Assembly (NCBI GenBank): GCA_944390805.1
Contig: CALXQW010000013.1
Location: 1-64,000, forward strand
Source of the DNA: an uncultured Opitutales bacterium
Lineage (GTDB): Bacteria > Verrucomicrobiota > Verrucomicrobiia > Opitutales > Intestinicryptomonadaceae
Direction: 5' to 3'
Length of the DNA: 64,000 nt
This document shows, one piece after another, positions 24,905 to 27,780 of this stretch. A model generated the notes under the pieces. That model ran no database searches. It was not told where the DNA came from and saw only the letters and a list, made by a program, of their open reading frames with translations. Every line of letters begins with the position of its first letter. Position 1 is the first letter of the stretch. Both the position numbers and the translations under genes were made by a program.

Positions 24905-24938
24905 TAAGGTATTGATGCATACGAACAGTTAAGAAAAT

Positions 24939-25538
24939 CTAAGAGAATATATTGCGTTTTAAGAAAGCATCTAAGGTTGATCTGCTCACCCTTAGCAATG
25001 TTGATATCTCAGATTTAGGCTTACCTTCGGAAAGCAAAGAATAAATCTTTAGCTTTTTTGAATCGAGTTTTAGTGATTTATTTCTGCTACCTTTAGGTCT
25101 TCCAAGGACCATTCCCGACGCGCGGCGCATAGACAAAGCCTCTTTTGTGCGCTGTGATATTAAATTTCGCTCTATTTCAGCACTCAAACCAAATGCGAAG
25201 GCCAAGACCTTTGAATTAATGTTATCGCCAAACTCGCAATTTTCTTTGACGGAAATAACGTGAATATTTTTCTCCATGCAGATATTTAATATGAACATAA
25301 TCTGCATAAGACTGCGACCAAGCCTAGATAATTCTGAAACGATAATAACATCTCCACTATTTAGAGATTTCAACATATTTCCTAATTTTCTATCCGATAC
25401 TTTTTTTGTTCCACTTACAGTTTCTGAAATCCATTTATCTATAATTATTCCTTTTCTCTTTCCAAACATTTCAATCTCAAAGCGCTGATTTTCAATTGTC
25501 TGTTTATCTGAACTTACTCTCATATAAGAATATATCAT
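24939..25538 (-). CDS. Serine site-specific recombinase (DNA invertase, Hin/Pin/Mpi type)
   Basis: A 199-residue small serine recombinase, probably the enzyme that flips the segment at 25590-25764. The catalytic Ser9 lies in MRVSS, with Arg7, and Arg72 and Arg75 in SELSRLGRS. The long dimer helix AFGLSAEIERNLISQRTKEAL leads to a GRPKGSRNK minor-groove arm and a C-terminal helix-turn-helix (about 165-197, SEISTLLRVSRSTLDAFLK). Sequence character resembles the promoter invertases of Bacteroides (Mpi type) more than transposon resolvases. A clear ribosome site AAGGAAAG precedes the ATG. The gene points away from the switch, and the possible promoter in the segment currently aims towards it. Base composition is AT-rich compared with tgt and aroC. 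Confidence 0.95.
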   Translation of the reverse strand: MIYSYMRVSSDKQTIENQRFEIEMFGKRKGIIIDKWISETVSGTKKVSDRKLGNMLKSLNSGDVIIVSELSRLGRSLMQIMFILNICMEKNIHVISVKENCEFGDNINSKVLAFAFGLSAEIERNLISQRTKEALSMRRASGMVLGRPKGSRNKSLKLDSKKLKIYSLLSEGKPKSEISTLLRVSRSTLDAFLKRNIFS

Positions 25539-25579
25539 AACAAACTTTCCTTTCTTAAAAAATAAAACTTGATCAAAAA

Positions 25580-25627
25580 TTACAAATATCTAAAAAAACG
25601 GTCGTTTATTTTGTAATCATAACTCAT
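25580..25627 (-). CDS. Orphaned lipoprotein start (15 codons) in the OFF orientation
   Basis: ATG at 25627 with GAGG six bases upstream reads M-S-Y-D-Y-K-I-N-D-R-F-F, crosses the left inverted repeat and ends at R-Y-L-stop (25580). An ATG four codons upstream (25639) is in the same frame. In the flipped orientation the same ATG would continue as …R-F-F-S-T-L-K-K-Y into the lipoprotein at 25769. It is thus the detached first exon-like part of that gene rather than a gene of its own. Confidence 0.75.
   Translation of the reverse strand: MSYDYKINDRFFRYL
25590..25610 (+). repeat. Left inverted repeat of the switch (recombination site)
   Basis: Perfect 21-bp match to the complement of 25744-25764. 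Its core AAACG-GT-CGTTT (25596-25607) has two matching 5-bp arms around an asymmetric GT dinucleotide, the layout expected of a serine-recombinase crossover site. The identity stops exactly at 25589 and 25611. Confidence 0.92.
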
Positions 25628-25652
25628 AGGATACCTCATATTTTTATTTATA

Positions 25653-25681
25653 TTTATATTCTGTTTGACGAATACTCTAAA
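25653..25681 (-). promoter_or_regulatory. Possible promoter inside the invertible segment
   Basis: On the minus strand TTTAGA (25681-25676) and TATAAA (25658-25653) are separated by 17 bp, a sigma70-like pair. Transcription would start some 20 nt before the ATG at 25627 and place GAGG (25637-25634) as ribosome site. In the present orientation it would run leftwards into the recombinase gene. The region is so AT-rich that chance matches are likely. Confidence 0.4.
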
Positions 25682-25743
25682 GGCATTCTTTTTTAATTGG
25701 ACATGTAATTTTGTATCTTTTGGAAAAATAATATTACTGTTTG

Positions 25744-25764
25744 AATAAACGACCGTTTTTTTAG
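25744..25764 (-). repeat. Right inverted repeat of the switch (recombination site)
   Basis: Reverse complement of 25590-25610, with core AAACG-AC-CGTTT at 25747-25758. The repeat is itself coding in the ON state, contributing K/I-N-D-R-F-F-S to the lipoprotein N-terminus. The base inside (25743) and the base outside (25765) no longer match the left copy. Confidence 0.92.
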
Positions 25765-25768
25765 CACA

Positions 25769-27691
25769 CTGAAGAAGTATATTCATTTTATATTACGCCT
25801 TCTTATAATATCTCAAATACTCATAGTAGTATGCTCGTGCGATAAAATTAATAGTAAAAATCGTTCAGATATCTCGGATGAGATCTCTGAAAAAATAAAA
25901 AAGAATTCTGAAAGTTTCGCCGACAATGAGATACAAAAGAAAATATGGCAAGAACGGCAAACTACGGCATATATGGAAATTAAAAACTACATTCCAAATA
26001 TTCCAATAGCCGACTATCTTAAGATAAAAAAGGATGCAGAGACAAATTTCCCTGAAGATTTTGAAAAGCAGTTAAAATTTATAACTGAACAAACAGGGGC
26101 AATACGCGAAATAGAAAAAATTAGAATATCGTATAAAAAATCGAGTTTTGAATTTGGTAAAAAGGTCGCCGAAAAATTTTATCCAAATGATAAAAGGGAA
26201 CAGTCTCTTATTCTGAGAGAATGGATAGATTTTTATGAAAATGTTATAGAGATGTCTAAGCAATTCGGTAGGGGAACTTTCAAAAAAATTCTTGAGACAG
26301 CCATAAATACGTCAGACGGCTATGTAAACCAAGCGCAATTATATGTACAAAACCAATACGAGGCTATGTTGTTTTTTAGAGAGTTAAAACCGTTTGATAT
26401 CCCAAAGGAACGTTTCGAGAAAACACTTAAAGAAGCCGAGATCAATTATCCTTTCGATTATGAAAAACGTAAAAAATCTGTTCAAGACAACCTTGTGAAA
26501 ATCAGGGAGGAAGAAAGAATTAAAAAATTTTCAAGAGAAAAGAAAATAATAGAAGATGCAAAGAAAAAAGCGAAACTTCTTTCTGACTCCCAATATGTAG
26601 AAAAAAACGGTATAAATAAAAATGAACTCTACAATTTCTTGAATGAAAACGTATTCACAAAGAAATACCAGATGGGGAAACCCTGTGTTGGAGTATACGC
26701 ACTATTTAAGGGGAAACCCGTTGTATTCTGCACAAAAGAATATATCGGGGATAGTATGCCTATAGTATTTTCAAACAGCAGAATGACAATAACATGTTCA
26801 AAAGCATATGTTGCTGCAAATTTACCTATAATTGCGTGTATTCCGGATAAGCAACCTCAGATAAAACCTGTTCTTAAGGTTGTTGATAACGAATCTTCCC
26901 CAAATATAATAGGGAAAGATCTCCTCATGTATAATCCTTATTCAAACATAATAGATATATCCTCTTTAAAGATAGTATCAGAGTCTCAAATGCACTATAA
27001 CGTAGAAAAAGATAACGGCATGAACAATTCGGTCATAATAGACTATGAAAATAAACTATTTATAGGAATAGCATTGGAATTATTCATACCAGGGATATTC
27101 GATAATACCGACAATAATTTTGTCACACTTACATCATTAGGATATGGATCTAAGATTCCAAATATAGAATCATTTGCTAGTGAATTAAATGATGAAGGAG
27201 GAACTCTAAGCGATTTGATAGAAAAACAAATATTTTATCCAAGAATAAACTCTATTTCTGAATGGGAACCTTTTGACTTTTCAAAGTTCAGGCGGCAAAA
27301 GGATAATATTATATTATTAACATCAAGAAATAATGATTTCCTATATTTCTTCCATCATAGGAATATTGGATACGCATTAAACAATGCTTCTTTGAATGCT
27401 GTTGCCAGAAAACATATGGGGCTTATACGAGGGTTAAAAAGATTAAATCTTGATGCCAGAACTATACAGGAAAGATATTACAAATATCTTCTGGATGTTG
27501 AATTTGAACTCAGTAAACATCTGAAAGATACAAGATGGAAAGAGCATTGTTATTCCATTAATAGAGATGAATTTATGTTCCAATATCTCTTACTCAAATC
27601 CATGTCGAAATATTTTTCAGATCATCTTAGAAGTGGAGATTACAATAAGTTCTTTAGGCAGGAAATAGGAGAATTACTATATAATATGTAA
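25769..27691 (+). CDS. Phase-variable large lipoprotein (OFF orientation; no standard start)
   Basis: Homologue of the 11730-13685 lipoprotein over its full length. The frame contains the signal L-K-K-Y-I-H-F-I-L-R-L-L then QILIVVCSC, with lipid-accepting Cys at 25838-25840. The only possible start left of the signal is CTG at 25769; the first ATG in frame is at 25973, far inside the homologous region (the residues before it, KKIWQERQTTAY, match KKDWIERQAKAW of the paralogue). So the gene as given is not normally translatable. In the flipped state it would start inside the segment and give 654 residues. Codons are strongly AT-rich. Function unknown; a surface-exposed, phase-varied role is inferred. 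Confidence 0.85.
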   Translation: MKKYIHFILRLLIISQILIVVCSCDKINSKNRSDISDEISEKIKKNSESFADNEIQKKIWQERQTTAYMEIKNYIPNIPIADYLKIKKDAETNFPEDFEKQLKFITEQTGAIREIEKIRISYKKSSFEFGKKVAEKFYPNDKREQSLILREWIDFYENVIEMSKQFGRGTFKKILETAINTSDGYVNQAQLYVQNQYEAMLFFRELKPFDIPKERFEKTLKEAEINYPFDYEKRKKSVQDNLVKIREEERIKKFSREKKIIEDAKKKAKLLSDSQYVEKNGINKNELYNFLNENVFTKKYQMGKPCVGVYALFKGKPVVFCTKEYIGDSMPIVFSNSRMTITCSKAYVAANLPIIACIPDKQPQIKPVLKVVDNESSPNIIGKDLLMYNPYSNIIDISSLKIVSESQMHYNVEKDNGMNNSVIIDYENKLFIGIALELFIPGIFDNTDNNFVTLTSLGYGSKIPNIESFASELNDEGGTLSDLIEKQIFYPRINSISEWEPFDFSKFRRQKDNIILLTSRNNDFLYFFHHRNIGYALNNASLNAVARKHMGLIRGLKRLNLDARTIQERYYKYLLDVEFELSKHLKDTRWKEHCYSINRDEFMFQYLLLKSMSKYFSDHLRSGDYNKFFRQEIGELLYNM

Positions 27692-27780
27692 ATCCTACGT
27701 TTATAAAGCTATTTTATTTTCCGAGGAAAAAGGACGTTTTTTTCTTGATAAAAATCAAGGGAAAAGCGACCATTTCTCCA

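Follow-up and report, generated by a model that had tools for sequence, protein, structure and literature searches.

A putative Mpi-type phase switch that would supply the start codon of a lipoprotein gene in an uncultured Opitutales bacterium

Introduction

A lipoprotein gene that begins at a DNA repeat and carries no start codon of its own raises the question of how it could be translated. Such a gene is found in the window, by which we mean the whole stretch of 64,000 nucleotides that was analyzed, where it adjoins a short segment bounded by inverted repeats and the gene for a serine recombinase. A first-pass annotation had read this locus as a phase switch in which inversion of the segment supplies the start of the gene. 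Mpi-type phase switches are usually read as flipped promoters, the start codon of the gene staying put, and a gene caller would take the lipoprotein gene in its OFF state as truncated (start at 25973) or broken, missing the repair that a flip would bring. The features of the window locus, here called C13, and of a paralogue used for comparison are as follows.

24905-27734, no strand: AT-rich cassette inserted between tgt and aroC, made up of recombinase, segment, and lipoprotein
24939-25538, minus strand: serine recombinase (invertase) of the Mpi family; 199 aa; left repeat 51 bp away
25590-25764, no strand: putative invertible segment of 175 bp, 24.6% G+C, sequenced orientation OFF
25590-25610, no strand: left inverted repeat, putative recombination site, perfect 21-nt complement of 25744-25764
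25610-25627, minus strand: start ATG inside the segment (25627-25625), preceded by GAGG, and the codons MSYDYK
25744-25764, no strand: right inverted repeat, read as I-N-D-R-F-F in the lipoprotein frame
25745-27691, plus strand: body of the lipoprotein gene, without its own start; 648 codons, 654 aa once joined to the segment
11733-13685, minus strand: lipoprotein paralogue, for comparison only; 651 aa with its own start; no switch in its vicinity

Results

The recombinase and its putative recombination sites

The recombinase encoded next to the left repeat matched PF00239 at 111 bits and the master DNA invertase Mpi family, NF009949, at 295.5 bits (curated cut-off 272). Its catalytic residues are intact, the family alignment showing Arg7, Ser9, Arg72, and Arg75 to be invariant, and its profile matches in the PDB were to the DNA invertases 4m6f and 3uj3 and to gamma-delta resolvase. 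The gene has its own ATG, preceded by the Shine-Dalgarno-like sequence AAAGGA, and its closest named relative belongs to Puniceicoccaceae bacterium Marseille-Q1082. The genome (G000) yielded two PF00239 recombinases, each adjoining one Mpi-type repeat pair; the second, at locus C29, is 66% identical to the first and scored 297.2 bits against NF009949.

The two repeats at C13 are 21 nt long, 100% complementary, and separated by a spacer of 133 nt. They form the single perfect inverted repeat of at least 16 nt within 1 kb in the 64-kb window. Both the repeats and the adjoining recombinase gene are as the first-pass annotation had described them. The core of the left repeat, AAACG-GT-CGTTT at 25596-25607, is nearly palindromic around an asymmetric central dinucleotide, which fits a serine recombinase, these enzymes making a two-base crossover. 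Cores resembling ARACGTTCGT are present in inverted orientation at C13 (AAACGGTCGTTT), at C29 (AAACGGACGTTT), and in the relative G007 (AAACGTTCGTTT). The Mpi-type site is quoted as ARACGTTCGTN (PMC8375218), and the C13 and C29 cores differ from the published Mpi core in the central dinucleotide only. At C13 and C29 alike, the inverted repeats enclose a short segment beside a target gene, as is characteristic of an inverton. Two unpaired AAACGnnCGTTT cores lie elsewhere in the genome (G000:C4:38093 and C29:90568); the number of matches to the reversed pattern suggested that these are due to chance.

We also examined the segments for signals acting upon transcription. A sigma-70 scan, which may be ill suited to promoters in this phylum, detected no site inside the C13 segment; at C29 it returned weak sites around the segment at close to chance level, subject to the same limit. 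An RNA spanning both C13 repeats (25590-25764) would fold into a 21-bp stem (-38.5 kcal/mol, z -5.3), and read-through transcription from outside could therefore be attenuated in either state.

A lipoprotein gene that lacks a start codon

The lipoprotein frame opens after the TGA at 25742-25744 and contains no ATG, GTG, or TTG before the ATG at 25973; the candidate starts ahead of that position are all non-standard codons (ATA, ATT, CTG). This start-free lead of 76 codons was the longest among the 32 stop-to-stop frames of at least 300 codons in the window, the next longest being 46 codons. The earlier claim that the frame begins at the right repeat without a start is confirmed, and the sequenced state is OFF as judged by sequence, the frame being closed by the TGA at the repeat. 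The C13 target is a paralogue of a lipoprotein conserved in the Intestinicryptomonadaceae, and 10 of 11 aligned homologues have their own Met at the N-terminal signal peptide; the exception, L111, is listed from an internal Met. In several relatives the lipoprotein family adjoins an apparent histidyl-tRNA synthetase gene.

The protein has a signal peptide with a lipobox and matched no family in Pfam or NCBIfam. A structure model (mean pLDDT 79) combines a helical region with a beta domain at the center, for which the best, although weak, structural matches were chymotrypsin-like/HtrA-type proteases (best E 5e-3). We predict from this model that the central domain is chymotrypsin-like, and make no claim of protease activity.

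When positions 25590-25764 were reverse-complemented, the internal ATG with its GAGG came into frame with the lipoprotein gene (MSYDYKINDRFFSTLKKYIHFILRLLIISQILIVVCSC...), predicting a product of 654 aa, 3 residues apart from the 651 aa of the paralogue. The full inverted junction reads MRYPMSYDYKINDRFFSTLKKYIHFILRLLIISQILIVVCSC..., the 654 aa being counted from the second ATG, which is the one with GAGG before it. The first base of the right repeat ends the TGA (25742-25744) in the OFF state and an AAA codon (Lys) in the ON state. As sequenced, the start module points toward the recombinase; once inverted, it points toward the lipoprotein gene. Our recomputation agrees with the earlier description of this join, and departs from it as to how surprising the join should be. 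With shuffled segment interiors, an in-frame ATG in the required orientation occurred in 11% of cases for C13 and 24% for C29, and exactly one orientation carried an in-frame start in 24-35% of trials. At about 1 in 9 for one locus, chance makes a single frame join weak evidence, and the first-pass annotation had therefore put its improbability too strongly. Because the join by itself is weak, the case for a switch is carried by the missing start of an intact gene together with recurrence of the arrangement.

Recurrence at other loci

The second cassette of the same genome lies at G000:C29 1-3200 (L005). It has a segment of 174 bp at C29 2255-2428 with perfect 20-nt repeats, and was assembled OFF as at C13, a TAA stop being formed at the repeat. 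Flipped on paper, the segment reads MANNDKINVRLFGHFKETV... in frame, and the flip (MANNDKINVRLFGHFKETVYRNFSLLPRFRQSIHRLRIPYKFYNLRRICHMVCIAIFCTAYGYCEPPQ...) joins a gene of 523 codons that probably encodes an exported protein. The distance from start to repeat is the same at both loci, M plus 5 codons to K-I-N. The C29 and C13 segments are homologous over their full length, with a local alignment score that was reached by 0.2% of shuffles, and these two loci are consequently not independent cases. Note also that an ATG at 2140 of C29, outside the segment and with AGGA upstream, could also start the gene.

An independent case is found in G005, a member of the same family but of a different genus. 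Here an Mpi switch assembled in the ON orientation (L131, G005:C169 419-3909) gives a type II C5 cytosine methyltransferase its start. The segment, at C169 1061-1207, measures 147 bp, with 20-nt repeats that contain one mismatch, and shows no detectable similarity to those of C13 and C29. The ON junction reads MKTNQNLTPEGVQINQRLSKHNKKNQKNVISLFSGCGGL... (assembled sequence MKTNQNLTPEGVQINQRLSKHNKKNQKNVISLFSGCGGLDLGF), and the C5 methyltransferase domain begins about 25 residues in. The best methylase profiles begin right after the switch-derived peptide, from which it appears that the natural start has been replaced. When flipped on paper the frame is closed (V*INQR*S), and the next possible start lies within the catalytic domain. 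A gene for an NgoFVII-like restriction enzyme comes next, and the locus is a candidate for phase-variable restriction-modification. The G005 genome is a fragmented draft, in which the contig holding the locus is 3.9 kb long. Only one orientation supplies an in-frame start, fully so at C13 and G005 and, at C29, subject to the ATG at 2140.

This recurrence, at C29 and G005, is the strongest new evidence for the switch. The shared anatomy and register of C29, the ON state of G005, and the Met found at the signal peptide of the homologues all support the proposal that the segment supplies the start of the gene. As to the alternative orientation in related genomes, an ON state exists in G005, at an unrelated gene; no second genome carries the C13 locus, and none of the loci was seen in both orientations. 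The assembled orientations belong to different loci, OFF to C13 and C29 and ON to G005. A search of relatives for a flipped C13 revealed no close orthologue, the next homologues being about 33-34% identical, and the site is empty in the congener G001.

Mpi-type segments of a different kind occur in two relatives, G007 and G012, in each of which the repeats stand between the recombinase and the target. In G012 (L132, G012:C14 8712-19001) they lie immediately upstream of brxA in a BREX operon (BrxA, BrxC, PglX), which is thereby a candidate for phase variation through promoter inversion. In G007 (L130, G007:C175 7747-16426) the repeats, with one mismatch, lie upstream of an HKD+Snf2 helicase gene, behind which are type III restriction-modification genes. 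Both were rejected as start-supplying switches, since each target begins at a GTG or ATG of its own that lies beyond the segment. In the recombinase tree the G005 enzyme is closest to the promoter-type enzyme of G012. This placement, along with the dissimilarity of the G005 segment, suggests that the start-supplying form may have arisen more than once or may have been lost in G012.

Gut Alphaproteobacteria (L099, L094, and L034) also carry recombinases of the Mpi family, each with a segment between inverted repeats immediately downstream. That of L099 faces a glycosyltransferase-like gene with its own ATG, and the three segments, which look promoter-type or unclear, were not accepted as further cases. 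When 167 Mpi-family loci, with 121 repeat pairs of at least 12 nt, were scanned systematically, C13, C29, and G005 came out as the top candidates, all with Mpi-like cores, followed by four weaker candidates without such a core. No further convincing start-supplying switch was found among 80 loci from GTDB genomes, 80 loci from viral contigs, and 21 of 26 loci of the phylum set, and an extended sample of the phylum added none. In a class-wide search of 384 genomes for paired cores, the two G000 loci alone stood above the level of the reversed-pattern control. We also compared the positions of contig ends, of which 19 were upstream and 12 downstream of the recombinase among 87, a difference too weak to serve as a sign of mixed orientations.

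Origin of the cassette

The cassette has a G+C content of 31.5% compared to 46.8% for the window, in which it is the lowest stretch. In the congener G001, which lacks the cassette, about 180 bp separate tgt from aroC compared to about 2.84 kb in the window, and the flanking genes are 86-89% identical in nucleotide sequence to those of the window. The AT-richness of the cassette and its absence from G001 are most simply read as an acquired module.

Proposed mechanism and alternatives

We propose that C13 is a self-contained cassette in which an Mpi invertase flips a start-bearing segment of 175 bp and so switches the lipoprotein gene, a reading to which we assign a probability of about 0.78 based upon the sequence. 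The invertase would recombine the two 21-bp sites around the segment beside its own gene, and we infer that such inversion takes place in cells. The segment would bring a promoter, whose position there is conjectural, along with a ribosome-binding site, the ATG, and the first six codons. With the switch OFF, the start module would be aimed at the recombinase gene, encoding a 15-residue leader, MSYDYKINDRFFRYL, then a stop, then the invertase, and the lipoprotein frame would be shut by the stop codon formed at the repeat. In the ON state translation from the ATG would run across the repeat (K-I-N-D-R-F-F) and on into the signal peptide in a single frame, giving the full 654-aa lipoprotein. If the promoter is indeed inside the segment, then the OFF state would favor and the ON state would lower expression of the invertase, thereby acting as a latch. 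A phase switch of the Mpi type, working at the level of the start codon and presumably of the promoter as well, is well supported.

An alternative is an ordinary Mpi-type invertible promoter, inversion affecting transcription only, with the in-frame ATG being incidental and the lipoprotein started at a non-standard codon such as CTG 25769. The segments of G007 and G012, whose target starts lie outside the repeat, are consistent with such an explanation, as is the 11% frequency at which a suitable ATG arises at C13 by chance. However, no ATG, GTG, or TTG is found outside the segment for 69 codons at C13 and 51 codons at G005, the catalytic motif of the G005 enzyme would be lost without the start in the segment, and the closed/open pattern recurs at three loci; we thus consider an ordinary promoter unlikely. 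The start codon missing from the sequenced state could also signify a decayed gene that has lost its 5' end, the repeats and recombinase being immobile remnants, and absence of the cassette from the congener indicates that it is dispensable. Decay is difficult to reconcile with a 648-codon frame kept intact in so AT-rich a gene, with repeats that are still perfect, with a recombinase that retains its catalytic residues, and with a flipped product that differs from the paralogue by no more than 3 residues in length, and it appears to us quite improbable.

It is less probable still, to the point of being hardly credible, that the segment chiefly controls the recombinase itself, its orientation being autoregulated and the lipoprotein a passenger. 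The start modules of C13 and C29 do face the recombinase as sequenced and encode a short leader peptide, but the C13 recombinase has an ATG and AAAGGA of its own, and three loci with unrelated targets all preserve the frame into the target. We therefore favor the start-bearing segment as a switch of the lipoprotein gene. A broader proposal, which we advance tentatively and would not wager on, is that mobile, self-contained Mpi switches of this Opitutales family have taken over the 5' ends of accessory genes time and again. The captured targets would be a surface lipoprotein, an envelope protein, and a DNA methyltransferase; the segment would supply promoter, ribosome-binding site, and start codon, and the recombination site would become part of the protein. 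Since the OFF state aims the start module at the invertase, the invertase would be lowered when the switch is ON, the switch thereby acting as a latch.

Discussion

Our analysis points to C13 as a small example of a recombination site constrained to be protein-coding. With a restriction-modification methyltransferase as the target in G005, the same design would switch the methylome as well as surface proteins.

The C13 enzyme resembles the small serine invertases Hin and Gin in fold and mechanism class, although it is distant from them in sequence. Hin is encoded inside its invertible segment and uses a Fis-bound enhancer, whereas the C13 invertase gene lies outside the segment, beside it. Invertons have reportedly been surveyed with PhaseFinder and PhaVa (Jiang 2019, Chanin 2024), and the arrangement described here resembles those in such surveys in that the segments are short and a flip alters coding sequence. 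In one gut community, roughly half of the invertons overlap a CDS (PMC11892184). We found no published Mpi-type segment that supplies start codons in the literature searched, and the inverton surveys may include one.

The closest comparison is with the Mpi systems of Bacteroides. The Mpi of B. fragilis is a global invertase that acts at a distance upon 13 regions, of which seven are polysaccharide promoters (PMC4747536), and in B. intestinalis similar sites flank promoters of 183-186 bp (PMC8375218), near in length to the 175 bp of C13. The system described here shares with that of B. fragilis the recombinase family (NF009949), the site core (ARACG..CGT), and targets that are surface structures. 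It differs in that each enzyme adjoins its own segment: rather than one invertase serving many segments, two paired sites were found in the genome, each beside its own recombinase. It differs also from the B. fragilis promoters in that the segment bears the start codon and the repeat becomes part of the protein.

There is precedent for inversion moving a start codon. In the vsa system of Mycoplasma pulmonis, inversion carries a promoter, a ribosome-binding site, and the 5' coding end to a silent lipoprotein gene, the coding start being 714 nt long and common to many silent genes (PMC2268961). The recombinases of mycoplasma vsa-like systems are Xer-like tyrosine enzymes (PMC3047005). At C13, as in vsa, inversion would give a silent lipoprotein gene its 5' end, but here a start of six codons would flip in place, serving one gene and moved by a serine enzyme.
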